Under the pieces are notes generated by a model that was given only the letters and a program-made list of their open reading frames with translations, made no database searches and was not told where the DNA came from. Shown here piece after piece: positions 20,779-37,837 of a DNA stretch of 43,216 nucleotides; positions within the stretch are counted from its first letter, which is position 1; each line of letters begins with the position of its first letter. The position numbers and the translations under genes were made by a program. The DNA is from a virus: the IMG/VR virus record IMGVR_UViG_3300036785_000047, positions 1 to 43,216 of that record, one strand, 5' to 3'.

Positions 20779-22379
20779 CGCTGCTTCACCAGCCTCTGCA
20801 TGACGGCCGTTGATTGCATGTGCCTTTGAATCAACTGGGCATTGCGTGGTGGCGCCACGATGGAGAGTTGGGTGGACTTCAAGGCTGGCCACAGCGCATA
20901 AAGAAACGCATCGGCGTTGTCTGGTGACCGTCCGATGCGCGACTTGATGTCTTCCTTGGCCTCAATCCATATCTTGCCTTTCTTGATGAAGTATCTTGGT
21001 TGGAGCAATTGGGCTTCAAGCGTGAGTTGGTCGTCGGCTGCTGACGTATCGATCCTGCCATCTTGGAAGAGAATGCGCGCGCCCCACCAAAGCTCTGCGC
21101 GCTGATTCCCATACTCTTTTGACCTTGGGGCATTGCTAGCATTGAACCCTATGATCGTTGGTGTCGTTGCCGGCGGCAGGTTGGTGATTGCCTCGTGTGA
21201 GCGGACTGCCGCGATGATGCCAAATCCGACACCAATGCTATCGATGACCACCTGTTGTGGCATGGTGCTGATGATGGCACTGACAATGTTGTCGGTGACC
21301 TCATTGGGATCACTTGTGCGGTAACGCCATTCTGTCGTTGGTCGATAGCCTTGCGGGGTGGTGGTAACTAGGCGGATGACGGTCTCATCGCCTGTGTCAG
21401 AGCCAGCGACGTCAACACCCAACACCGTGCTCATCTGGGCGTGTGCATTAGCCACGCCTGGCTGGGTGCTGACGCCGCTGGGGCTCGTGGAGTTGGGCTC
21501 GCGCTCACGCTCATTGAATGGTACGCGCGCCTTGACAATGTCAACCAGCTTGATCGTGCTGAGTGTGTCAATGGGTGGGAATTCAGCTTCAACCTTTGAC
21601 AGCCAAAATGGGTGCTGCTCGCCCCAAGCCTTGCGCCGCTGCTCGACCCACTCTGGGCTCAGCAGAACTTCCTTCAGTTCTTGGGGTATGGTGTCGCCTT
21701 CATCGGTAAAGTTGGGCGTGTCCCAAGCACTTATCCTGATGCAGTGATACCCATGCTTTTGCGGGTTGTTATGGATGTCGGCAAAGAGGCTTGTGGGGTC
21801 ATCTGGGTTGCCGATCATGAGGATGCGCGCATGCGTGTTTGTCGCCAAGGTCTCGACAGCATCGATGAGTGATGAGGTGACACCACTGGCCTCGTCCACA
21901 ATGATCAGGAGGTATCGTGCGTGCATGCCCTGGAACGCAGCCGGGTTGTAGTCACTGGGCTTGCGTCCCATGCCCGCCAGGTAGCTGCCGATCCACCACT
22001 CGGTCTGGTTCATGCGACCAGGCAGGTCAGCCTGGGCCTTGAGCTGGTTCAACTCAACCCAGAGTATGCCCTTGACCTGCATGGCCGTCGGCGCAGTGGT
22101 GATCACGCGGGCCGTGGTCGCGGGGTGAACGTCGAGCCAACGGGCGGCAGCAATCGCAGCGATGAATGACTTGCCAGAGTCGTGGCAGGACCTGACCGCG
22201 ACGCGATGATGGTCTTGTAAGGCCTGGAGGATCTGGCGTTGGGCGGACCAGAGGGTCGTGTGAGGCAGGGACGTGGTGACCCAGGCATTGGGGTCATGGC
22301 TTTGCGTGAGTTTCTGGGCTTGCTTGCTTGCTAGCTTGAAAGGCTGGTCTGGGTCAAGCGCCATTGGGCCCTTAGCCAT
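20775..22379 (-). CDS. terL: Terminase large subunit
   Basis: This 534-residue protein packages DNA by ATP hydrolysis and cuts the concatemer. The ATPase half has a Walker A variant RSCHDSGKS (about residues 61-69), an adenine-side PTAMQVKGILW segment, and Walker B LLIIVDEASG. MIGNPDDP is a coupling-type motif. The nuclease half has GVDVAGSDTGDE, VIDSIGVG and DNADAFLYAL, the three acidic motifs of an RNase H-like terminase nuclease. ATG 22379 overlaps the upstream stop over 8 bases; in-frame Met codons further upstream lie inside that gene. Length is normal for the family. Packaging type (cos or pac) cannot be told from the sequence. Confidence 0.93.
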   Translation of the reverse strand: MAKGPMALDPDQPFKLASKQAQKLTQSHDPNAWVTTSLPHTTLWSAQRQILQALQDHHRVAVRSCHDSGKSFIAAIAAARWLDVHPATTARVITTAPTAMQVKGILWVELNQLKAQADLPGRMNQTEWWIGSYLAGMGRKPSDYNPAAFQGMHARYLLIIVDEASGVTSSLIDAVETLATNTHARILMIGNPDDPTSLFADIHNNPQKHGYHCIRISAWDTPNFTDEGDTIPQELKEVLLSPEWVEQRRKAWGEQHPFWLSKVEAEFPPIDTLSTIKLVDIVKARVPFNEREREPNSTSPSGVSTQPGVANAHAQMSTVLGVDVAGSDTGDETVIRLVTTTPQGYRPTTEWRYRTSDPNEVTDNIVSAIISTMPQQVVIDSIGVGFGIIAAVRSHEAITNLPPATTPTIIGFNASNAPRSKEYGNQRAELWWGARILFQDGRIDTSAADDQLTLEAQLLQPRYFIKKGKIWIEAKEDIKSRIGRSPDNADAFLYALWPALKSTQLSIVAPPRNAQLIQRHMQSTAVMQRLVKQR

Positions 22380-27086: not shown

Positions 27087-27860
27087 TCAGATTGCCTTTG
27101 TGTACCCACCATCGACGATCACAGTTTGCCCAGTGATATATGATGAAGCTTGTGAGCAATAAAACACTGCGACTCGTGCGAATTCAGATACAACACCATA
27201 TCGCCTCATCGGTATTTTGGCCATTGTCGACTCATCAATACCACCACCCAACTCAATAGTTCGATCGGTTGTTATGCGGCCTGGTGCGATCGCATTGACT
27301 CGCACATTAGGCGCAAGTTCAACAGCAAGCGACTTAACAAGCCCAATGATCCCAAGGCGAAACGTGTTCGATAGCACCATGCCGTCCATTGGCACCTTCA
27401 CACTCGATGATGTGTTGGCAAGTATCGCACCATCGCCATCCCCGCTAGGCATTGCTGGCAAGCAGGCGCGAATTGTCCTCACATATGCCATCAGCGTTAA
27501 TCTATACGCATCACTCCAATCCTTATCGTTGAAATCAGCGAACTTGCCAGGCGTTGGTCCACCACCATTGAGGAACAAAGCATCGATGTAACCATCACCA
27601 TTGTCCTTTGCAACATGGGCAAACTCGATGATGTCTTCAATGTGCGTCATGTCGCCAGCCACAATTCGACAGGCAACGCCATACTTCACAACTTGTTCGG
27701 CAACCTCCATCAACTCAGTTTCACGCCTGGCAAACAAAGTGACGTTGGCATTTGCCTTGGCGAACTCAAGCGCAACTGCTCGACCAAGTCCACTCGATGC
27801 GCCCATGACTGCAACAGATTTGCCCGACAAACCAAGTTCCATCCCGGTCATCCCAGCCAT
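27087..27860 (-). CDS. SDR family oxidoreductase without canonical Tyr-Lys pair
   Basis: This 257-residue protein is a Rossmann-fold short-chain dehydrogenase/reductase. It has the cofactor motif MGASSGLG (about 18-25), a GDMT acidic turn, LNGGGP in place of NNAG, and the C-terminal ITGQTVIVDGG typical of FabG-like enzymes. After the NTSSSV strand the usual YxxxK is replaced by SNTFRLGIIGLVKS, so the catalytic Tyr and Lys are absent at that place. A subgroup of cellular SDRs shares this SN-x-x-R variation. ATG 27860 overlaps the previous stop (TGATG) behind a GGAGG site. The substrate is unknown. It lies between a MazG-like/ThyX block and the primase-helicase. Confidence 0.85.
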   Translation of the reverse strand: MAGMTGMELGLSGKSVAVMGASSGLGRAVALEFAKANANVTLFARRETELMEVAEQVVKYGVACRIVAGDMTHIEDIIEFAHVAKDNGDGYIDALFLNGGGPTPGKFADFNDKDWSDAYRLTLMAYVRTIRACLPAMPSGDGDGAILANTSSSVKVPMDGMVLSNTFRLGIIGLVKSLAVELAPNVRVNAIAPGRITTDRTIELGGGIDESTMAKIPMRRYGVVSEFARVAVFYCSQASSYITGQTVIVDGGYTKAI

Positions 27861-28288
27861 CAAATTGAACCTCCAATCCCAAAGTCTGGTAGCATGTTCA
27901 CACCGTCAGACCTGCCCCACAAATGCAAGGCCATTGGATGGATGTTAACGTGTACTGCGATAGGCGCAAAGACCTGATAGGCAAATCGACGCCGACCAAA
28001 GATTGCCCTGTGTAGCAAGACCAAATCCTCATAGTCAGGCATCAGTTGCTTGCCGCCACGCTTGCCTTCCCATTTGACGACAGAGGCATGCATCCAATGG
28101 TCGCCCAATTCATCGCCAATTGGGTATGGTGCCTCTGTGACGATGTACTCGGTCAGCACATCATCATCAACCGGCACATGGCGCATCATGATCTTAATGC
28201 CTGCTATCCCAAATGGCACATATGAAACTATCTTGAGTCCAGCGTTCTTCAACACGACTTCCATGCCGTTGTTAATCGACAAGGTCAT
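27860..28288 (-). CDS. Conserved phage protein, DUF7694-like
   Basis: This 142-residue protein has a C-terminal half seen in several phage families: WMHASVVKWEGKR, PDYEDLVLLHRAIFG, then a run ending VHVNIHPMALHLWGR and PDFGIGGSI. The pattern matches a domain of unknown function sometimes listed as DUF7694. The start at 28288 overlaps the MazG-like gene by 17 bases; ATG 28264 is an alternative. The neighbours are ThyX, a MazG-like protein and an SDR, suggesting nucleotide or DNA metabolism, but no activity is known. Confidence 0.65.
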   Translation of the reverse strand: MTLSINNGMEVVLKNAGLKIVSYVPFGIAGIKIMMRHVPVDDDVLTEYIVTEAPYPIGDELGDHWMHASVVKWEGKRGGKQLMPDYEDLVLLHRAIFGRRRFAYQVFAPIAVHVNIHPMALHLWGRSDGVNMLPDFGIGGSI

Positions 28289-28544
28289 ATGAATCCAACC
28301 AAGCAGCCGCCACTGCCGCGATGCTAACCAAAGCCGTCTCGATGGTCTCGTTGTCGCCACCTTCAATCGCTGACGACATCGCTCCAGTCAACTCGGTGAC
28401 ATGCAGCATTAGCATGCCCAACTTGTCGATGTTTGGCATCGACTTGTCAATTTCAACGCCAGTCGCACGCATGGTAACACGCCGCCCAGCAATCGCATTG
28501 ACCGTCAACGATGATCCCACCGCCCATTCATCCGCTATGCTCAT
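28272..28544 (-). CDS. Degenerate MazG-like protein
   Basis: This 90-residue protein begins at ATG 28544, which overlaps the ThyX stop as TGATG (28542-28546). The second half (about 40-87) has the helical pattern of small phage MazG-like proteins: LGMLMLHVTELTGAMSSAI, GDNETIETAL, then SIAAVAAAWLDSYD. The family normally has an EExxE metal site in the first of these helices; here only one Glu of it remains (HVTEL). Either it is not a nucleotide pyrophosphohydrolase any more, or it acts in a complex. The first 38 residues form a separate beta-like part (RRVTMRATGVEID). Confidence 0.55.
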   Translation of the reverse strand: MSIADEWAVGSSLTVNAIAGRRVTMRATGVEIDKSMPNIDKLGMLMLHVTELTGAMSSAIEGGDNETIETALVSIAAVAAAWLDSYDLVD

Positions 28545-29587
28545 CAGATTGTCCTCGATGGTTTGAAGGTTCGGTTGTCGTCGAGCGCCCAATCAAATCC
28601 ACATTGTTGCTCGACTTTCTCCCAACCTTGGAACGTACACATGTGCTCGACCATACGCTGATTCCCATGCATATCAGTTGGGATGATTTGTGGCGCTCGT
28701 GTTCGCTCGCAACTGATCTTAGGCTCTGCGCCTGTGCCCACGATCCATGGTGACTGGGCAACCAACGCTTTGCCCATCTCCCGCACGATATGGCTGATCT
28801 CCCATTGGAACATTGAGCATGCGCGATAGTCATGCATGGCGATGAACTCTCGCAAGTTATACTCGCACATGATGTAATTCTCAGTGCCCTCTGGCAAGAT
28901 GAATCGCGCATCCTGGTACGACACGCCAGCCTCGACAGCCAGTCGATATGCCTTACGAGCAGCAGTGATTGCTTCAGACCAGGCTGTATACAATTCATAG
29001 TCTGTCTCTGGTGCATCGCGGCCCATTGTCTTCCACACGCTCTCTGGAACACGAATGTTTGCGCCAGAGCCATCGACACCAACGAACGATGTTGCCCGTT
29101 GTGATTGCTGGTGAAACCCAGCACGCCGAGAACGCACCAATTGGTGAGTGCAAGTGCGGGATGCCCCGGACACCTCGAAGACAATTACAAATGCTTCCAT
29201 GACGGTTTGGAGTCCGCCACGCAAAACGTCCTTCCAATCGCCTTCGGCAACACCCGCATCCATGTCTTCAAAGGTGACGTTGTGACCAGTCGTTGCGTTC
29301 ATCGCTCGCTGCATCAATGGCGCCATCTCTTCCATGGGCGGCAGGCCTTTGATGAGTTTGACTGCAATTCCATCAATGCCCACATGGTTCATACTGTCGG
29401 CACCAGGCGACACGTGCTTCCAACCGCCAGCTGCGTTACGCTCGTGATTGTTGAATGCCACATCGCGCAGCAATGGGTTGTCGTCCGTGTAGTCAAGGTC
29501 TGGCCTTGACCAACGCCCATTGTCGAGTGTCCATTGATCTTGCTCGGCTACCTTGTCCATTTGTTCTTTGTCTTCCATGCTACCCAT
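28544..29587 (-). CDS. thyX: Flavin-dependent thymidylate synthase ThyX
   Basis: This 347-residue protein makes dTMP from dUMP using FAD and methylene-tetrahydrofolate. The ThyX signature lies at about residues 152-164 as RSRRAGFHQQSQR, compared with the usual RHRxxSxxxxSxR, so the central His is Ser. Downstream, LPEGTENYIMCEYNLREF and YRACSMFQWEI match the C-terminal active-site segments. It is longer than bacterial ThyX (about 220-250) by an acidic N-terminal extension of about 60 residues and a C-terminal tail. ATG 29587 has GGGAGG 8 bases upstream; ATG 29593 is too close. A phage ThyX usually supplies thymidine for replication; hydroxymethylating relatives exist. Confidence 0.85.
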   Translation of the reverse strand: MGSMEDKEQMDKVAEQDQWTLDNGRWSRPDLDYTDDNPLLRDVAFNNHERNAAGGWKHVSPGADSMNHVGIDGIAVKLIKGLPPMEEMAPLMQRAMNATTGHNVTFEDMDAGVAEGDWKDVLRGGLQTVMEAFVIVFEVSGASRTCTHQLVRSRRAGFHQQSQRATSFVGVDGSGANIRVPESVWKTMGRDAPETDYELYTAWSEAITAARKAYRLAVEAGVSYQDARFILPEGTENYIMCEYNLREFIAMHDYRACSMFQWEISHIVREMGKALVAQSPWIVGTGAEPKISCERTRAPQIIPTDMHGNQRMVEHMCTFQGWEKVEQQCGFDWALDDNRTFKPSRTI

Positions 29588-29594
29588 GACCATT

Positions 29595-30129: not shown

Positions 30130-30268
30130 GTGCTTCTCCCTTATGTTTAGCATCCAACGCTTCAAAGAATTGATCAGACCCCCACCCACACTCACACTTG
30201 GCCCAATAGACTCTGATCTTCAGCCCATCATTGTGTCTGGTATACAGATGGAAGACATGATCACTCAG
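30089..30268 (-). CDS. Possible small Cys-motif protein lacking a standard start
   Basis: Reading the minus strand, a frame is open from just inside the end of the polymerase gene (first codon after a stop at 30275-30277) to TGA at 30089-30091. It reads like a real protein: VFHLYTRHNDGLKIRVYW, then AKCECGWGSDQFFEALDA and KGEAHAPGAK. The CxCGW...AH pattern recurs in small actinophage proteins. It has no ATG, GTG or TTG upstream of the conserved part. A CTG at 30268 lies 4 bases after GGGTGATC, which could serve as ribosome site. Alternatives are a +1 shift at the end of the polymerase gene, or a sequencing error. The span given starts at that CTG. Confidence 0.4.
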   Translation of the reverse strand: MSDHVFHLYTRHNDGLKIRVYWAKCECGWGSDQFFEALDAKHKGEAHAPGAKQFEPYPI

Positions 30269-33200
30269 GGTCGATCACCCACATGTCATTGACCTCAATC
30301 TTCCTGCCGAATGATCGATTCTTGTATCCAGACACGAGTATCAGATCATAGTCCAGTCTGATACGCATGAGCAAATCCCTCAGTTTGGGGAACCTCCATC
30401 TATTAATCCTGATGTTGATCTCATCTGTATCATCATATGCATACAGAACCATCGAGTGCTTTTTGTTTGGCTCTTTGATAGTTGTCGGATCAAGATCAAC
30501 TCCTTCACGTGACCGATGCTCTTCGAACATGTCTCGCAAGTTACGACCATGTACCCTTCCGATCCAGACAACTGACAATTGGTCCTCTCTACGCCAAGTC
30601 ATATTGCCTTGCGCATCATAGAACTGAACGCCCAAGTCAAAGGGCAAGTCTTCACTCTTATGACTTGTCGATGGCAGCATCACACCAGATCCATCGACCA
30701 ATGTTCCAGCGTTCAACATGCTACGAGTTTCATTGAGCTTGTTGTGGAGCGTCGCAATCCCAAAGGCATCGTCATGTTTATCAACGGTCCACTCTTTGAC
30801 CGTTGCCAACTTCTTGGGCCCAATCCCAGGCAACGCCTCGACATCAGCAAGTCCCCATTCTTGGCCACGCTCCCAAGCAAGCGATCTATCGGCAACGATG
30901 AGCGAACTCATCCCAGCACCGATGCCTGGTATCTGAAGGAAGCCAGGTATTACATCCTTACCATCGGCAGAGACAGACCATGTGATATCAGACAAATCCA
31001 GATCAGCACCTAGCACGTTCACTGGCCTACCGACACCCCGCAACTTGGCATACTTTGGATCAATAGCATCACGCATAAGGTCTTGCCATTTCTCTTTGCC
31101 GGTCTTGCGTAGACTCGCGGCATAGAATGCGCTTGGATGATAGATCTTGAAGTACATGGCCCAATAGCCAAGCTGTGTATAGGTGATGCTGTGCGCCAGA
31201 ACGAAAGCATACTGCCCAGCAGTGACCATCCTACGGAATATGATGTCTGCTTCCTTCTCACTGAGGCCATTGGACACTGCGCCTTCAATGAACGGATCAC
31301 GCTTGGCGTTGAACGCTGCTTCGCCATATTTGAGCGAGACAATCTTGCGTACTTGGCTTGAGACAAACCAGGAGAAATTGCCAATCTCTCGACAGATTGC
31401 TAGCAACTGCTCTTGGTAGATAATCTGGTACTTGGTATAGCCACAAATCCGTTCGATGTCTTTGTTGAATGTCCAGTGATTGCGTGCATCATCACGATTC
31501 CACTTGCCATGCTTAGCGTTGATGTAGTCGAGAGTTGTTCCAGAGTGGAATGGACCTGGTCGAGATAACGCATTGATATCAACCAATTCCTGGAAGTTGT
31601 CTGGCATCAGCTGTGATGTGACCATGCGGGTGGTACGGCCAGAGAACTGAAATATGCCCTTGACATCGCCTCGCCTGAATGCTGCAATCAGTCGTTCATC
31701 ATCGAGTGGGATACGATACAAGTCATCGACAGACATGCCTGTCATTCTCATGCAATGCTTGATCATCCCAAGCGTAGAAAGTCCAAGCATATCGATCTTC
31801 ATCATCCCAAGATACTCAGCATCCTTCTTGTCAACAGATAGCACCGACAACTTTCGCTTGGGACCATTGGGGATTCTTGATGGTAGTTCGCGTGTGTATA
31901 GCGCCACGGTATCACTCAATGGCTTATCGGAGACGACAAGTCCAGCAGCATGAACGCCAAAGCCTTTGAGCATCCCTTCCAAACTCAATGCTGAACTCAA
32001 TGATGGATTTCGCTCCCAGATTGCCTTGGCCAATGGAAACTGTTCGATGGTGTCTTCAAGCGTCTTGGTGTAACGCGAGTCACCAGATGATCGTTCAATG
32101 ATGAACTCTTTCAATCGCTCTGTTTCAGCGAATGGAACCTTGGTCACACGAGCGACATCGTCGATGCTATTGCGACCCTTCCATGACGTATATGTCCCAA
32201 TGTTACCAACGTAATCTCTGCCAAACTTGTCTTGGAAGTATCGGCGCAATTCATCACGACGCTCGTCATCAAAGTCAAGATCAATGTCTGGATAGTCAGT
32301 CCTGTTGGGATCGATGAAGCGTTCAAAGTACATTTGTGGGAAGGCCAATGGATCGACTTCTGTTATGCGTAGCAGGTAACATACCATCGATGCTGGTGAT
32401 GATCCACGACCTGACCCAACGACAATGCCCTTACTCTTGGCCCACCTGACCACATCAGATATGAGCAGGAAGTAATCGACAAAACCTTTCTCAATGATCT
32501 GTGGTACTTCAAGATTCAATCTGGCGACATAGTCATCACGTGTCATGCCTTTCGCAAGGTTGTGATCCATGTCACGGTATCGCCATCCATCCCGCAACCA
32601 ATCCCAAAGCACAGCATTGGCATCTGTGTATCCATCTGGCAACGGATACTTGACCAGATCTGTCTTTGGTAATATGACGTTGCATCGATCAGCAATCTCA
32701 AGCGTGGTATCCAAGGCAGCCACCACGGCAGACTTTGGGATGCCTGTCGCCAACAGCCGTGCACCAATTGTCTGTCGATCCAAGAGAGTCATGGGCACAT
32801 TGTAATCCCACTCAGACTCTTGCTGGTCAACTGTCTTCTTGGTTGACTTGCCGCCACGAGATATAGCATGTATCAGCGAGTGCATCTTTTTGTTAGACTC
32901 AAGTGGATAGTGCGCATCCAAGGTCACGACAAGCGGGATGTTAAGCCGTTGGGATACCTCATACAGCATCTGGTTAAGCACGAGTGTTTTGGGCAACTCT
33001 GGGAATGCCTGGACCTCAAGGTAATACCTGTCGCCGAACTTCTCACGCATCATCGAGGCAATCTTGAGTGCTGTGTCGATGCCGCCACCAGTCTCGACAT
33101 CCTTGCCACCAATGCTCTTACAGGCCATGGCCGATCCCATGCAACCAGATAGCACGATCAAACCTTCACCGTTCTGCATGAGGTTTGCACTCGTTGTCGT

Positions 33201-33548
33201 TGGGAAGTAATAAAATGCTTGCCACGACTTTGTGACTAAGCGCAATAGATTGCGATAGCCTATGTCGTCCATGGCCAAAACGCCAAGGTGGTATTTGTGC
33301 TGACTGGGCGTATCTCTGGTATACAACTCACAGCCATACATCGGCTTGAAATCAAAGCCTTCAGCCTTTGCTGCCTTTGCCGCCATCTCAAGCTTCACAT
33401 GACTGCTCACATTGCCATGTTCAGTCAGCGCCAGAGCCGGATACCCCAGCTCAATCGCTCGCTGAACATAGTCGCTTGGCTGCCCATAGGCATCACCATA
33501 TGAGTAAGTCGAGTGCGTATGTAGACTTACAAACTTCATGTTAGGCAT
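30261..33548 (-). CDS. dnaE: DNA polymerase III alpha subunit (DnaE-type) with PHP domain
   Basis: This 1095-residue replicative polymerase belongs to the C family. The N-terminal PHP domain keeps its metal ligands: SLHTHSTYSYGDA, ALTEHGN, GCELY, YHLGVLAM, VLSGC and LDAHY. The palm has GSGRGSSPASMV and YPDIDLDFDDERR (aspartates at about 421-425). Finger and helix-hairpin-helix parts follow (GFGVHAAGLV; LPGIGPKKLATV), and a short OB-like C-terminus. With an intact PHP site it may proofread, as actinobacterial DnaE1 does; that is inference. ATG 33548 is chosen because AAGGA lies 5 bases upstream; in-frame codons further upstream have no support. It replaces family A or B polymerases seen in most phages. 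Confidence 0.93.
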   Translation of the reverse strand: MPNMKFVSLHTHSTYSYGDAYGQPSDYVQRAIELGYPALALTEHGNVSSHVKLEMAAKAAKAEGFDFKPMYGCELYTRDTPSQHKYHLGVLAMDDIGYRNLLRLVTKSWQAFYYFPTTTSANLMQNGEGLIVLSGCMGSAMACKSIGGKDVETGGGIDTALKIASMMREKFGDRYYLEVQAFPELPKTLVLNQMLYEVSQRLNIPLVVTLDAHYPLESNKKMHSLIHAISRGGKSTKKTVDQQESEWDYNVPMTLLDRQTIGARLLATGIPKSAVVAALDTTLEIADRCNVILPKTDLVKYPLPDGYTDANAVLWDWLRDGWRYRDMDHNLAKGMTRDDYVARLNLEVPQIIEKGFVDYFLLISDVVRWAKSKGIVVGSGRGSSPASMVCYLLRITEVDPLAFPQMYFERFIDPNRTDYPDIDLDFDDERRDELRRYFQDKFGRDYVGNIGTYTSWKGRNSIDDVARVTKVPFAETERLKEFIIERSSGDSRYTKTLEDTIEQFPLAKAIWERNPSLSSALSLEGMLKGFGVHAAGLVVSDKPLSDTVALYTRELPSRIPNGPKRKLSVLSVDKKDAEYLGMMKIDMLGLSTLGMIKHCMRMTGMSVDDLYRIPLDDERLIAAFRRGDVKGIFQFSGRTTRMVTSQLMPDNFQELVDINALSRPGPFHSGTTLDYINAKHGKWNRDDARNHWTFNKDIERICGYTKYQIIYQEQLLAICREIGNFSWFVSSQVRKIVSLKYGEAAFNAKRDPFIEGAVSNGLSEKEADIIFRRMVTAGQYAFVLAHSITYTQLGYWAMYFKIYHPSAFYAASLRKTGKEKWQDLMRDAIDPKYAKLRGVGRPVNVLGADLDLSDITWSVSADGKDVIPGFLQIPGIGAGMSSLIVADRSLAWERGQEWGLADVEALPGIGPKKLATVKEWTVDKHDDAFGIATLHNKLNETRSMLNAGTLVDGSGVMLPSTSHKSEDLPFDLGVQFYDAQGNMTWRREDQLSVVWIGRVHGRNLRDMFEEHRSREGVDLDPTTIKEPNKKHSMVLYAYDDTDEINIRINRWRFPKLRDLLMRIRLDYDLILVSGYKNRSFGRKIEVNDMWVIDPE

Positions 33549-33566
33549 GATGATCCTTCCAATAAC

Positions 33567-33605
33567 GGCAGGCTGGCCCGGTGGGGCATGCCGAGCCAAC
33601 CTGCC
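33567..33605 (-). other. Stem-loop before the polymerase gene
   Basis: GGCAGGCTGGC (33567-33577) pairs with GCCAACCTGCC (33595-33605) over 11 positions with one mismatch. The 17-base loop holds a GGCATGCC palindrome. It fills the spacer between the 77-residue acidic gene and dnaE. No T-run follows on the transcribed strand, so it is more likely an RNA-stability or translation-control element than a factor-independent terminator. Confidence 0.5.
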
Positions 33606-33612
33606 CATTCAT

Positions 33613-33846
33613 TTAGCTGCTGGCAATCTCGTCAGTCAACTCTGACGCATCGCTGAGTGTGATGGTGGCTTCCAGATAAATCTCATCACCATCTTCATCG
33701 ATCGCACTCAGATCGTTGTCGTTGATGACTTCCTCAATTGCGCCAATCACAGCGTTGGCGTCAAGCCCACCGCCTGGCTCTTTGGGGTTGCCTTCCTCAT
33801 CGACTGTCTCGGCTTCCCCACTGATTGTGAACCTGTACTTTGCCAT
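33613..33846 (-). CDS. Small acidic hypothetical protein
   Basis: This 77-residue protein begins MAKYRFTISGEAETVDEEG at ATG 33846, with TGGGAGGC 8 bases upstream. An in-frame start at 33876 would overlap the previous gene. It is very acidic (many Asp and Glu) and seems to form a small alpha-beta fold: strand, helix (ANAVIGAIEEVINDND), strand (EIYLEATITLSD). Small acidic phage proteins can mimic DNA or bind basic host proteins, but no specific family is recognised. A stem-loop and dnaE follow. Confidence 0.65.
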   Translation of the reverse strand: MAKYRFTISGEAETVDEEGNPKEPGGGLDANAVIGAIEEVINDNDLSAIDEDGDEIYLEATITLSDASELTDEIASS

Positions 33847-33853
33847 ACTACTT

Positions 33854-33861
33854 GCCTCCCA
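33854..33861 (-). promoter_or_regulatory. TGGGAGGC ribosome site of acidic protein gene
   Basis: The third copy of the element ends 7 bases before ATG 33846 and decides that start. Confidence 0.6.
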
Positions 33862-33862
33862 G

Positions 33863-34174
33863 TTAGAAGTTGACATCGGATGGTATTATCAAGCCAGAAT
33901 GCTTGTTCCTTTTCTCTGTGATCATCACCTCATCCCATGATATTGGAACACCACGCATCATTGGGAACAGATTGAAATTGATCCTTGCTGGCAGACTCTC
34001 TTGCCATCCAATACGCTGCATCACAAACTCGGTAGCTTTGTCGCCCACCAGCTCATACGAACCACGTTCAAAGTCATGATACATCTTTGCTGTGAATACA
34101 GTTGTATATGCTCTGATGGCAAATTTCACCATATTTTGTTGGCCTGTGTTCGGTACATCAGACTCGTACATCAT
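33863..34174 (-). CDS. Hypothetical protein
   Basis: This protein of about 103 residues starts at ATG 34174, coupled by ATGA to the end of the VOC-like gene (34171-34174). It reads as a small alpha-beta protein: VKFAIRAYTTVFTAKMYHDF, VGDKATEFVMQRIGW, RINFNLFPM and SWDEVMITEKRN. I know no family for it. Its neighbours are the VOC-like gene and the acidic protein before dnaE. No membrane segment or signal peptide is present. Confidence 0.6.
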   Translation of the reverse strand: MMYESDVPNTGQQNMVKFAIRAYTTVFTAKMYHDFERGSYELVGDKATEFVMQRIGWQESLPARINFNLFPMMRGVPISWDEVMITEKRNKHSGLIIPSDVNF

Positions 34175-34692
34175 GACCACACACTCTCGTGAGAATCCCA
34201 TGGGATTTTCTGGACGGTCTTCATGTGATAACCGAACAAGTCTGAGGTATCCCAGAGCGACTCAATGAATCTAGTTCGCCCATGTAGATATGGGTTTGAG
34301 TGATCAAGTGTCGTGAACTTGTAGATTGGTTCACGGTCCAATCGCTCGCTGATGCGCTTTGTCTCGGCTCGCACATCCTGGGTGTAATAGGCCATGTGTG
34401 ACACGCCATCATACATGACGTTATAGTTGGGGATATCAACTTTGTCATCTGGCGACCAATGCAACAACTCATACTGGAAGCCTGGAATGATGTCGAAGTT
34501 GAAAGCAAGCATCGCTGTCACCGTTTGCAACAACGAGCCAGGTGGTGGAGTCTGGACACAATAGTCCACCACCCAATTCCGGTAGCCCATGTCAATCCAC
34601 TTGCGTCGCATGGCCAACCAGCCTACATGTGTTGGTACGTTGATCGAGATTTGATTGAACGCACCATCATTGATTGTGTCGATGATCAACAT
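34171..34692 (-). CDS. VOC (glyoxalase-like) family protein
   Basis: This 173-residue protein begins at ATG 34692, with GGGGAGG 6 bases upstream and the SDR stop only 2 bases before it. It resembles the vicinal oxygen chelate superfamily. A first half has INVPTHVGWLAMRRKWIDMG and, after a gap, FDIIPGFQYELLHWSPDD. A second half has GVSHMAYYTQDVRAETKRIS and ends RTRFIESLWDTSDLFGYHMKTV. The His of SHMAYYT and the Glu of FQYELLHW are plausible metal ligands. VOC proteins include glyoxalases, dioxygenases, epimerases and drug-binding proteins; the substrate here is unknown. Close coupling to an SDR suggests a shared pathway. Confidence 0.6.
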   Translation of the reverse strand: MLIIDTINDGAFNQISINVPTHVGWLAMRRKWIDMGYRNWVVDYCVQTPPPGSLLQTVTAMLAFNFDIIPGFQYELLHWSPDDKVDIPNYNVMYDGVSHMAYYTQDVRAETKRISERLDREPIYKFTTLDHSNPYLHGRTRFIESLWDTSDLFGYHMKTVQKIPWDSHESVWS

Positions 34693-34694
34693 CG

Positions 34695-35399
34695 TCAGCC
34701 TCCCCGCATTTCGACAATTGATCCTGCCATTGCTTCTGGTGAGTGGAATAGCAACCAACGAGCAAGACTGGCCACCTCATCCTTATGTACCATGCGCCCC
34801 ATGGGTCTTACTTTGAATGCCTCGATTGTCGCCTCCTCAGTCCAACCACGCAACTCAGCTGTAACCTTGATGTCATCGTTGGTCATTGGTGTATCTTCCA
34901 CACCAGTCGGCATGATACCTGTGATGTGCCACTTGGGCGTCAACTCACGAGACGCCACCTTGAGGGCCATCGCAAGCGCTGCCTTGCTTGAGCAATAGCC
35001 AATGGTCGCCCGCATTGGCACGATTGATGTCTCACTGGTGATGACGCAGATGCGACCTGAGTCTTGGATCTTCATCAAGCCTTGAAGCAAGTTGATGAAC
35101 CCAAACACATTCACATCAAATGTGTGCTTGATGGATTCGATGTCGAGATCACCAACAAAGCCCAATGTCTTGGTGCCAGCGGCATAGAACACATGCTGAA
35201 ACGGACCAAAGCCCATCGCCATGTGATTGGCCAAGAACTTGTCGATGCTGACTGGATCGGTAACATCCAAAGCATCCGGTGGTGGTGACCAGAACTTCTG
35301 CTTGTTTGGATCATCCTTCAGACTATTGAGGAACTCTCGACCAATTCCACCTGTTACGCTACCAACCACCAATAGATTGGCATAGCTGAGCCTACTCAT
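34695..35399 (-). CDS. SDR family oxidoreductase, canonical
   Basis: This 234-residue Rossmann protein has VVGSVTGGIG (a TGxxxGxG variant, about 10-19), FYAAGT, and ICVITSETS leading to YCSSK, the catalytic Tyr-x-x-x-Lys. A VMATGxx-like TGIMPTGVEDTPM follows, and the C-terminus ends GSIVEMRGG. So it should be an active NAD(P)-dependent oxidoreductase, unlike the other SDR in the window. The start at 35399 overlaps the previous stop (ATGAGTAG) behind a TGGGAGGC site; an ATG at 35412-35414 is part of that site. It is coupled to the VOC-like gene. The substrate is unknown. Confidence 0.85.
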   Translation of the reverse strand: MSRLSYANLLVVGSVTGGIGREFLNSLKDDPNKQKFWSPPPDALDVTDPVSIDKFLANHMAMGFGPFQHVFYAAGTKTLGFVGDLDIESIKHTFDVNVFGFINLLQGLMKIQDSGRICVITSETSIVPMRATIGYCSSKAALAMALKVASRELTPKWHITGIMPTGVEDTPMTNDDIKVTAELRGWTEEATIEAFKVRPMGRMVHKDEVASLARWLLFHSPEAMAGSIVEMRGG

Positions 35400-35682
35400 C
35401 GTCCTGCCTCCCATGGCTGACTACTTGATCCATCGATGCGATCGTCAAGAAGCAATGTCCAATTAAATCAATGAGAATCTCCCTTGGTTGCTCGCCTTGT
35501 AATTCCTGGCCGTCCCAGATGGCTCGCTTCAGTTTGCCTACCTTTCGATAGATGTCGACAAAGGCACCCTTTGTTCCCAGACGATTTGCATCATCGGCAT
35601 AGTCGATGTTCTTGTTGGTGAAGTGTAAACTCCACTCTGGCAATAGACATTCCATGATGTATTGGTAGTCGCTATCGCCCAT
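35392..35682 (-). CDS. Possible nucleotide-modification-associated protein (DUF1599-like)
   Basis: This 96-residue helical protein has KNIDYADDANRLGTKGAF, then DIYRKVGKLKRAIWDG and ILIDLIGHCFLTIASMD. The pattern resembles small actinophage proteins of the DUF1599 or nucleotide-modification-associated-domain type, where DY-x-D and RK-x-x-K-L-K positions are conserved; I rate that as a tentative match. ATG 35682 overlaps the HAD stop by 11 bases; an earlier TTG at 35706 is possible. It precedes the SDR-VOC pair. The activity of the family is unproven. Confidence 0.55.
   Translation of the reverse strand: MGDSDYQYIMECLLPEWSLHFTNKNIDYADDANRLGTKGAFVDIYRKVGKLKRAIWDGQELQGEQPREILIDLIGHCFLTIASMDQVVSHGRQDDE
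35406..35413 (-). promoter_or_regulatory. TGGGAGGC ribosome site of the SDR gene
   Basis: The fourth copy lies within the end of the preceding gene and is spaced for ATG 35399. Confidence 0.6.
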
Positions 35683-36310
35683 TTCTCTTTGCCTGCCATT
35701 GCTCAACTATAACTCCAATTATTTGTTGGGCTTCCCATAGATCTTTGACAGACAAGTAGCCATCATCCGGCCTGTCTTTGTTGTGTGGGCGTTCAATCAA
35801 GATCGGATTCAGCTTTGCACGGCTAGCCTGTGCGCACATCTCTGGCAGATCATCAAGTACGCATATGACGTTCTCTGACCCAACGATCTTGGACAACTCA
35901 CGATACTTGTAATCACCATAGATCACATTATGGAACTTGATATGGCATCGCTTGAGCCAATGCCTGGTATCTGGATCCATGGTGTCTAATCGCAAGTATG
36001 GACGACTGGTGCAAATCCAAACGGAAACACCCATGTGTACAAGGGCATCTGTCAACTCTGGCGCACCATCGTACATCGGCATGCTACGCTTCATCCCGCC
36101 AAGTCTGTATGCCAACTTGATCTTGCGATACGTGTCTCGACTTGTGCCCAATGATGAATAGAACTGGAACTTTGTGGCACCATCGGGCCAACCTGCTTCT
36201 GGTCTGTATTCCACGTTGCGCCCAAGCCATAACGCTGCGAACTGAGCGAAATGGGTGTAGTGATCGCCCAATGTTCCATCGATGTCGAGTGCCACTATGG
36301 GCTTGGTCAT
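35672..36310 (-). CDS. HAD-family phosphatase-like protein
   Basis: This 212-residue protein has the haloacid dehalogenase core. Motif I is ALDIDGTLGD (aspartates 9 and 11), motif II is VWICTSRPY, and motif IV is CVLDDLPEM. An insert with the helical RDTYRKIKLAYRLGGMKRS forms the cap. These residues suggest a Mg-dependent phosphohydrolase, probably on a nucleotide or small sugar phosphate, as for 5-prime-deoxynucleotidase-like HADs in phages. The start overlaps the FAD gene stop (ATGA). The substrate is inferred only from context with ThyX and nucleotide genes. Confidence 0.82.
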   Translation of the reverse strand: MTKPIVALDIDGTLGDHYTHFAQFAALWLGRNVEYRPEAGWPDGATKFQFYSSLGTSRDTYRKIKLAYRLGGMKRSMPMYDGAPELTDALVHMGVSVWICTSRPYLRLDTMDPDTRHWLKRCHIKFHNVIYGDYKYRELSKIVGSENVICVLDDLPEMCAQASRAKLNPILIERPHNKDRPDDGYLSVKDLWEAQQIIGVIVEQWQAKRNGR

Positions 36311-37116
36311 AGCACCCCAAGCGCCATCTCAAACGCATCATGGGAGAGAATGCCCTTTTGCCATAGGCCATATCTCCCAGCGCGTACGATGCCTGGCCAA
36401 CAATCACAGTTGGTCTGCAAAGGCTTGATGACTGGCATGACGCCGTGTGGCATGAAAATGTTTATGGCGTCACCTGCCCACTCGGTATTCGCATAATCAT
36501 AGATGATCGATGTGCGATACCAACCAGTCTGGCTTGGATGATCTTCATCAAACGGTCTGCCATTACATAGCACGACATGCTTTGTTCCATAACGCTCTTT
36601 GTTTCGCTCGACATCCCCGCCACGCCAGGTGTTATCTATCCAGACTTTCACGCTGGTAAACATGTGACGTTCGCGTTGGTAGCACAACTGCTTTGCGGGG
36701 ATTGTCGAGATAGTGGCGTCGTATGAATTGACGGCATGTAGCAGATATTGCTGGTCGATGATGTCATCGGTTATCATGGCCTGGTATCTCTTCCAAAGCT
36801 TGTGATAAGCCTCGCGGATCGACCATGCCTCATGATAGCCCTGGAATAACTCTGGCGACACCGTGATGCTTTCATCTGCATCATCGCCATAGACTTTGGC
36901 CCTGTAGTCATCGACATTGCCCTGCAGAACATACGAAAGCTTGACCGGTGGATTCAGGTCAAGCTCTGGTATAGCCCTATGCATATATTGTGCGCCAAGC
37001 ATCGATGACTTGCGCTTATTGCTGATTATTGTGATATCACATCCCATCAATCTTGCAGCATGTGCTGCCAGTAGTCCTGCTGGTCCACATCCAAGAATTG
37101 CGACTGCTTTCGGCAT
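36307..37116 (-). CDS. FAD/NAD(P)-binding oxidoreductase-like protein
   Basis: This 269-residue protein opens with AVAILGCGPAGLLAAHAARL, a dinucleotide-binding GxGxxG (about 9-14). A CDITIISN strand and KSSMLGAQYMHRAIPEL follow, as in FAD-dependent oxidoreductases. It is short for a complete flavoprotein monooxygenase or halogenase (about 350-550). A second half has VIDNTWRG-like and RTSIIYDYANTEW strands and the C-terminal MPHGVMPVIKPL. Similar short proteins appear in actinophages without known function. It lies between the HAD gene and the dimer-glycosylase-like gene. FAD binding is inferred from the motif; the substrate is unknown. Confidence 0.72.
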   Translation of the reverse strand: MPKAVAILGCGPAGLLAAHAARLMGCDITIISNKRKSSMLGAQYMHRAIPELDLNPPVKLSYVLQGNVDDYRAKVYGDDADESITVSPELFQGYHEAWSIREAYHKLWKRYQAMITDDIIDQQYLLHAVNSYDATISTIPAKQLCYQRERHMFTSVKVWIDNTWRGGDVERNKERYGTKHVVLCNGRPFDEDHPSQTGWYRTSIIYDYANTEWAGDAINIFMPHGVMPVIKPLQTNCDCWPGIVRAGRYGLWQKGILSHDAFEMALGVL

Positions 37117-37126
37117 GCTATTCAGC

Positions 37127-37837
37127 CTAACGATGGTCGTGTGTGCTGTAGACCCTCACTTGGTGGAACCGATCATGCACCGTCATCATGAGATCAAGCG
37201 ATGGGTCATCTGGTCGGATTGGGGTTGTGATATCTGGCATCAGATTGTGATACATGTTGGCGTGAATGGCGAACTCTACATGGCTCATCTTCTTGGCTTC
37301 AGCAAAGATCGATTTGCCATCAACGATGTAGTCAAACTTGCCATCTGGTGAAGGCTGTGGACCATAGAGCCACGTGTCTTTGTCAATCCTTGGCCACCAG
37401 TCACAGATATCATCACGAGCATTCTTGATTAGCTCGCCATACCACGCTGGATCATGACGCAACATCGCTGCCTTGTTGCTATCATGGAACTTCTGATGAC
37501 CCCACCACCAAGGCAACGGTGGCAAGACTGTCGAATATGTCCTGGTATAGCCCATGTCTTTCAGGCGCTTCTCATACTTCTCACCGATGCCCATGATACC
37601 ATCGACATCAAAGTTGACACCAATCCATTCCTGATTGAGTTCATGGGCAATCTTGGCTAGTAAGTCGTCATGTCCAATCCACATCGTCACGCCTGGATGC
37701 CACTGCCAGCCCTTGTTCTTGCCTCTCAGCGTCTCAAGAATTGTGACAGCATTGTTACGCTGAATGGTCAAATCAGCATCGCTAAGCATGACGATGTTCA
37801 TCTTGATGTCAGTCATAGGCAGGTAGATACGCATCAT
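37127..37837 (-). CDS. Pyrimidine-dimer DNA glycosylase-like protein (MSMEG_6728 type)
   Basis: This 236-residue protein resembles the MSMEG_6728 group related to pyrimidine-dimer glycosylases (T4 endonuclease V-like). Landmarks are LTIQRNNAVTILETLRG, GWQWHPGVTMWIGHDDLLAKIA and LNQEWI, then WWWGHQKFHDSNKAAMLRHD and WYGELI. Such enzymes cut UV-damaged DNA at the glycosyl bond. The catalytic residues of T4 endonuclease V are not securely located here, so base-excision activity is only likely. A C-terminal extension (about 165-236, GKFDYIVDGKSIFAE) is extra. ATG pairs at 37837 and 37834 follow a GGGTGA site. The neighbours are SSB-like and FAD genes. Confidence 0.6.
   Translation of the reverse strand: MMRIYLPMTDIKMNIVMLSDADLTIQRNNAVTILETLRGKNKGWQWHPGVTMWIGHDDLLAKIAHELNQEWIGVNFDVDGIMGIGEKYEKRLKDMGYTRTYSTVLPPLPWWWGHQKFHDSNKAAMLRHDPAWYGELIKNARDDICDWWPRIDKDTWLYGPQPSPDGKFDYIVDGKSIFAEAKKMSHVEFAIHANMYHNLMPDITTPIRPDDPSLDLMMTVHDRFHQVRVYSTHDHR

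Follow-up and report, generated by a model that had tools for sequence, protein, structure and literature searches.

A conserved phage gene cassette upstream of DnaE and a possible route to a modified pyrimidine deoxynucleotide

Phages M6, ViI and phi W-14 use a ThyA-type hydroxymethylase first and then a 5-hydroxymethyldeoxyuridine (5-hmdU) DNA kinase and aGPT-PPlases. This thymidine hypermodification was reportedly described by Lee et al. in 2018 and 2022. It is a phage-encoded pathway of several enzymes that produces an altered thymidine, is linked with replication genes and is accompanied by restriction-resistant DNA, and in these respects we liken to it a gene block in IMG/VR virus record IMGVR_UViG_3300036785_000047 (positions 1 to 43,216; this whole stretch of 43,216 nucleotides is called the window). 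The block, at 33613–37116, consists of seven minus-strand open reading frames (ORFs) in head-to-tail order, most of them slightly overlapping, and lies immediately upstream of a gene for a DnaE-like DNA polymerase III alpha (30261–33608, minus strand). Family searches and gene order confirmed both the block and the gene identities that the original prediction had read from the sequence: an FAD protein, a HAD phosphatase, an Nmad1-like protein, an SDR, a VOC protein and two small proteins. On balance, we favor the interpretation that these genes form the core of a pathway by which the phage supplies its own DnaE with a non-standard deoxynucleotide; the most likely product is a C5-modified pyrimidine made from deoxyuridine monophosphate (dUMP).

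The genes differ from those of M6, ViI and phi W-14. ThyA (PF00303) was absent from the window, which may be a fragment, and from the complete records of the cassette phages Troll4, Kyle, WFH and PA5, with positive controls detected. In the same sequences the 5-hmdU DNA kinase helical domain (PF18723) gave no match, in a search for which no positive control was scored. The 7-deazaguanine and Z-genome (diaminopurine) systems likewise modify phage DNA; no homologue of QueC or of PurA/PurZ was detected in the window or in these four cassette phages (controls again positive).

IMG/VR contigs and isolated actinophages repeat the window order FAD–HAD–Nmad1-like–SDR–VOC–two small genes–DnaE, and because it recurs across many genomes the block is not a chance arrangement. 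We searched 50,697 phage records by tblastn with the 269-residue FAD protein (36307–37116, minus strand; Rossmann motif GxGPxG, phrog_8720 at E 7e-71). The gene was detected in 120 records, with Gordonia, Microbacterium, Mycobacterium, Streptomyces, Arthrobacter and Nocardia as hosts. The gene for the Nmad1 (DUF1599)-like protein, p104 (35392–35706, minus strand), has relatives in 116 records whose host counts match those of the FAD gene. The remaining four FAD records are Sparcetus-type Microbacterium phages, in which a DUF6378-like gene takes the p104 slot. HAD phosphatases of the window type (35672–36310, minus strand) were found in 77 records, confined to the host groups that have the FAD gene. 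A profile search of IMG/VR yielded 213 relatives, 80 of which were kept, and loci were counted out of 92, many of them on contigs that end early. The HAD gene lies adjacent to or near the FAD gene in 81 loci, p104 is present in 73, the SDR in 30 and the VOC gene in 11, always directly after the SDR (11 of 11). We regard FAD and p104 as core genes and HAD as core in most loci. The common actinophage order is Sak4, a small protein, (a Pyr_excise-like protein), FAD, HAD, p104, [SDR, VOC] and DnaE; ThyX follows downstream in records that extend far enough. In some relatives the same stretch also encodes a UDG, a dCTP deaminase-like protein, MazG or a methyltransferase.

Conservation of FAD and HAD across 58 loci is about that of DnaE. 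In the nearest relative, the IMG/VR contig L002, the FAD, HAD and p104 proteins are 78–83% identical to those of the window, with ratios of nonsynonymous to synonymous substitution (dN/dS) of 0.06–0.08, and DnaE identity is lower, at 68%. The dN/dS range for FAD, HAD, p104, SDR and the small protein p87 together is 0.06–0.11; synonymous sites are saturated for the VOC gene and the small protein p112. A DNA-level search of the block against phages gave no match.

A second group comprises proteobacterial myophages. The best viral match to the window FAD model was a protein of Pseudomonas phage PA5 (TM 0.52, 15% identity), which also encodes ThyX, DnaE, MazG and gp067, a fusion of a HAD_PNKP domain with a C-terminal domain. 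When this C-terminal domain was compared with 4,400 ORFs, it matched only six, all DUF6378-like proteins of Sparcetus-type loci (E 1e-8 to 2e-5). The same fusion of HAD to a DUF6378-like domain occurs in Pbunavirus, in Pantoea phage Kyle and in E. coli phage WFH. Phage records with the PA5-type FAD gene number 359 (Pseudomonas 291, Escherichia 27, Serratia 9, Rhizobium 8, Xanthomonas 6, and others). The DUF6378-like domain was detected in 361 records, whose host counts are almost the same except that the four Sparcetus-type phages are included. Kyle and WFH share the order FAD, ThyX, HAD/DUF6378 fusion, SDR, VOC, exonuclease and DnaE, and their proteins match those of the actinophage-type cassette at 1e-20 to 1e-28 (SDR), 6e-5 to 1e-12 (VOC) and 5e-15 to 1e-21 (DUF6378). 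Pseudomonas Pbunavirus carry the cassette without SDR and VOC; the WFH VOC protein as query retrieved 54 phage records, among them the four from Microbacterium and none from Pseudomonas.

Co-occurrence of these families in other phage genomes, which had been suggested as a check, was thus found in two phage groups. The accompanying claim that they are uncommon together in phages was wrong, with the set or most of it present in about 480 of the 50,697 records. In the announcement of phage Xenia2 (PMC11385102), the same genes appear as the actinophage 'oxidoreductase / phosphatase / FabG-like' genes of clusters AE, BN, D, DG, DV and EF. The families are listed singly there, with no joint function, and the announcement proposed no cassette, no function, no link to ThyX, VOC or Nmad1 and none to proteobacterial phages. 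The block continues to stand as the best candidate for an undescribed system in the window.

The ThyX of these phages is altered. The window encodes a ThyX-like flavoprotein (28544–29593, minus strand; Thy1 2e-30) whose profile matches ThyX entries in the PDB down to 6e-16 and in which RSR replaces RHR. The cassette copies are homologous to flavin-dependent thymidylate synthase over the ThyX domain and keep the conserved arginines and the motif Ser/Arg. The RHRx7S motif itself is absent, with RSR, RQR or RTR in its place, and the RHR histidine is lost in 22 of 22 cassette-phage copies (R[QST]R in 20 of 20, plus two further IMG/VR copies). RHR is kept by five (ChewyVIII, HF2, ARV1, S-PM2 and 268TH002) of the six ThyX proteins compared from phages in which no FAD gene was detected. 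Motif and cassette are associated in this set of 20 and 6 sequences (Fisher p 9e-5), of which few lineages are independent. In Krampus, ThyX lies directly after FAD. We had considered the RxR motif unspecific, given that it is common to Pbunavirus and Wifcevirus, and dropped this idea on finding that both carry an FAD gene too. The original prediction's pairing of the block with the odd ThyX is borne out, and co-occurrence, slot replacement, domain fusion and the altered ThyX tie together the members of a conserved multi-gene cassette.

The model of the FAD protein (pLDDT 95.7) has as its best solved match the UDP-galactopyranose mutase (UGM) 4dsg (Z 14.7, 256 of 269 residues, 3.9 Å), with which it is predicted to have the overall fold in common; other flavoenzyme families match the fold as well, with Z above 12. 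UGM differs in length (about 360–510 residues), sequence identity is about 15%, and a nucleotide-sugar substrate is not indicated. Some proteobacterial phage copies carry a UGM annotation. Profile matches of the FAD protein in the PDB span the FAD motif only, and among bacterial GTDB contigs a search for homologues returned a single short Rossmann match.

The 212-residue HAD protein resembles 5'-nucleotidases (NT5C 6e-5; phrog_415 6e-16) and has the catalytic motifs DIDGT, TSRP and DD. Its neighbor p104 is predicted to be all-alpha. Eight of 31 members of the p104 family match DUF1599 (PF07659, Nucleotide modification associated domain 1; best 1.6e-6), the window protein not being among them, and p104 alone found no match in Pfam or the PDB. 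Its model consists of two helices whose best matches include the dCTPase DCTPP1, AF_0060, HisE and iMazG, none of them significant.

The FabG-like SDR (34695–35414, minus strand; adh_short 1e-18) has the YxxxK motif as YCSSK and appears to be an accessory tailoring gene. The glyoxalase-like protein p195 (34171–34692, minus strand), which like p104 has no Pfam match of its own, belongs by sequence to the VOC superfamily. Comparison with relatives suggests that its start is probably at 34692, giving 173 residues, and not at 34758. In the alignment Q14, E75 and H99 (173-residue numbering) are kept at the usual metal positions, and the profile had one match in the PDB, 3gm5 (E 1.3e-4). Glyoxalase_4 scores in its relatives were below the cut-off (0.013–0.091).

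From this assembly we infer the enzyme activities, a modified pyrimidine deoxynucleotide as the product and its incorporation into DNA by DnaE; the proposed order of steps draws on knowledge of the families. In the first step, the ThyX variant lacking the RHR histidine would activate dUMP with methylene-tetrahydrofolate and would yield, instead of plain thymidylate, another one-carbon product at C5, such as 5-hydroxymethyl-dUMP, or an intermediate that is handed over. We take the capacity of ThyX to form a 5-hydroxymethyl product as a lead only. The UGM-like FAD protein would then carry out the defining reaction at C5, through redox chemistry or a flavin-N5 adduct. In a subset of phages SDR and VOC might modify the substituent further, reducing a carbonyl and carrying out a metal-dependent isomerization; elsewhere methyltransferases or a glycosyltransferase may substitute for or extend them. 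Finally, the HAD phosphatase and the Nmad1/DUF6378/MazG-type protein could clear competing nucleotides or phosphates in favor of the modified dNTP. The nucleotide-metabolism neighbors DUF1599, UDG, dCTP deaminase, MazG and DUF6378 fit such a pathway.

Restriction digests have been reported for several Pbunavirus. In PMC10913387, JG024 virion DNA is left uncut by ScaI, NdeI and BsaI despite predicted sites and is cut by XbaI, and the authors' guess is methylation; SacII also cuts JG024 DNA (PMC3008698). Phages AA20 and AC20 resist 10 of 16 and 7 of 16 enzymes, respectively, HindIII and MspI being able to cut; the available text of PMC11945000 identifies no cause, and absent sites may explain part of the resistance. 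PA5 DNA contains NdeI, BsaI and ScaI sites. Cassette phages avoid 6-mer palindromes less than three sister phages do (Mann-Whitney p 0.014), a comparison with three controls, different hosts and short sequences on which we do not rely. As a separate observation, JG024 DNA made in yeast was not rebooted in P. aeruginosa PA14 or PAO1 (PMC10913387, available text); one explanation could be that unmodified DNA was restricted.

Several observations weigh against the favored pathway. Cleavage of Pbunavirus DNA by HindIII and XbaI makes it unlikely that every thymine bears a bulky group, and in the cited digests sites may be absent or host-methylated. Nine JG024 fragments were amplified by PCR (PMC10913387), so the DNA can be read by ordinary polymerases. 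Our literature search found no nucleoside analysis of cassette phages, and on DNA modification in cluster D phages it found nothing decisive. The ThyX of RHph_TM21B has RNR, having lost the histidine even though the cassette FAD gene is absent. Fold matches of p104 to NTP pyrophosphatases fall below significance. The actinophage FAD profile (A4) found no match in proteobacterial myophages, and the FAD proteins of the two groups align by sequence over the FAD motif only; their kinship therefore rests on fold, a similar C-terminal GR[YF]xxW identified by eye, and gene order. Since the HAD domains of the two groups also showed no mutual match by phmmer, FAD and HAD of the two groups are analogous or very distant.

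The main rival explanation is that the block serves nucleotide supply and pool sanitation for normal DNA. ThyX would then make ordinary dTMP, HAD and the Nmad1/MazG-type protein would destroy dUTP or damaged nucleotides, and the FAD protein would regenerate or otherwise help the ThyX flavin. Genes of the normal thymidylate economy (ThyX, MazG, DUF6378, dUTPase/dCTP deaminase and UDG) do accompany the block, and the retained ThyX arginines and motif Ser/Arg suit an ordinary synthase. We nevertheless consider this explanation rather unlikely, as it leaves SDR and VOC, the exchangeable methyltransferases and the loss of the RHR histidine unaccounted for and offers no explanation for restriction resistance in Pbunavirus.

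A second possibility is that independent accessory enzymes stay together only through inheritance of the early region as a whole; synteny extends to the flanking genes for Sak4, exonuclease and DnaE, and the phages within each group are related. However, DnaE of the window type is present in 1,243 phage records (282 with at least 80% coverage), and the sister phages Megatron06, C3PO and ChewyVIII have no cassette genes annotated between their Sak4-type genes and DnaE. Given that DnaE is much more widespread and that these three phages lack the cassette, FAD and p104, with their matching host counts, travel together beyond general synteny. The refilling of the p104 slot by a different family and the recurrence of the set, with the HAD–DUF6378 fusion and local rearrangement, in a distant phage group with other hosts make shared inheritance an improbable account.

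We judge slightly less probable still that the block belongs to a small-molecule or sugar pathway for virion glycosylation, the cell wall or host metabolism, in which the UGM-like protein would act on a nucleotide sugar. UGM is the top fold match, SDR and VOC proteins are common in sugar and carbonyl chemistry, and one relative has a glycosyltransferase near DnaE; yet the FAD protein is shorter than UGM and its fold is matched by other flavoenzyme families, linkage follows ThyX across host phyla, and every annotated context that we examined consists of replication genes with DnaE, ThyX and NTP-pyrophosphatase-like genes. The original prediction had offered a carbohydrate or small-molecule pathway beside DNA-base or nucleotide hypermodification. 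The neighborhood (DnaE, ThyX, MazG/DUF6378, dCTP deaminase/dUTPase and UDG) gives the former no support and fits a nucleotide or DNA-base pathway much better; the hypermodification idea is supported in part. Modification of host RNA, such as tRNA uridine, in place of phage DNA has a precedent in the flavin and folate chemistry of MnmG and TrmFO at uridine C5, but we give it hardly any weight, as the genes sit with DNA replication and not with tRNA genes, none of which ARAGORN found in the window; MnmG and TrmFO are not among the fold matches listed for the FAD protein, which does not exclude them.

Of the two small proteins, p112 (33863–34201, minus strand) is poorly conserved, with 35% identity to its L002 homologue and presence in three loci, and p87 (33613–33876, minus strand) is 67% identical to its L002 homologue (dN/dS 0.09). 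The window DnaE is 43–44% identical to cassette-phage DnaE, and a DnaE gene holds the same position in 63 loci. DnaE is split into two adjacent genes in Sparcetus (L005), Wollypog (L007), Onyinye (L010), Beyoncage (L012), LilyPad (L013) and Krampus (L015), and in some of these small or HNH genes lie between the halves. In Sparcetus, whose cassette includes SDR and VOC, a glycosyltransferase gene (21239–22315) directly follows the split DnaE. Directly upstream of the FAD gene, the window encodes a T4 endonuclease V-like (Pyr_excise) protein that has a long extension at its C-terminus (37127–37837, minus strand; PF03013 1.7e-6). Related ORFs occupy that position in 46 loci by an iterative search that may have drifted, and a tie to the pathway is uncertain. 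Adjoining ThyX, outside the block, are a second FabG-like SDR (27087–27863, minus strand; adh_short_C2 4e-43) and a DUF7694 protein (27860–28366, minus strand), neither with a homologue in the other loci examined. Downstream of FAD-HAD, a UDG superfamily protein (UDG 2e-24) is encoded at L067:8812–9435 and in 12 other loci, and a dCTP deaminase-like gene in 6 loci. Deoxycytidylate deaminase genes, a potential source of dUMP, lie in the early region of the Streptomyces cassette phages Wentworth (L004:5360–5761) and Yara (L014:2798–3199).

It is possible, and we put this forward more tentatively than the pathway itself, that several hundred sequenced phages, among them the much-studied Pbunavirus and cluster D mycobacteriophages, share an undescribed modified-pyrimidine route in which the C5 handle comes from a ThyX variant in place of a ThyA-type enzyme and is elaborated by a UGM-like flavoenzyme together with SDR and VOC. 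This idea can be tested directly because the isolates Troll4, Butterscotch, WFH, PB1, JG024 and Krampus have been described and sequenced. If a modified base is indeed made by the cassette, a large number of phages that are easy to culture would carry an unrecognized DNA modification built on new flavin- and ThyX-based chemistry, and families named only 'oxidoreductase', 'phosphatase', DUF1599 and DUF6378 would gain a function. The restriction resistance of Pbunavirus would also be explained, with a bearing on how phages escape host restriction.

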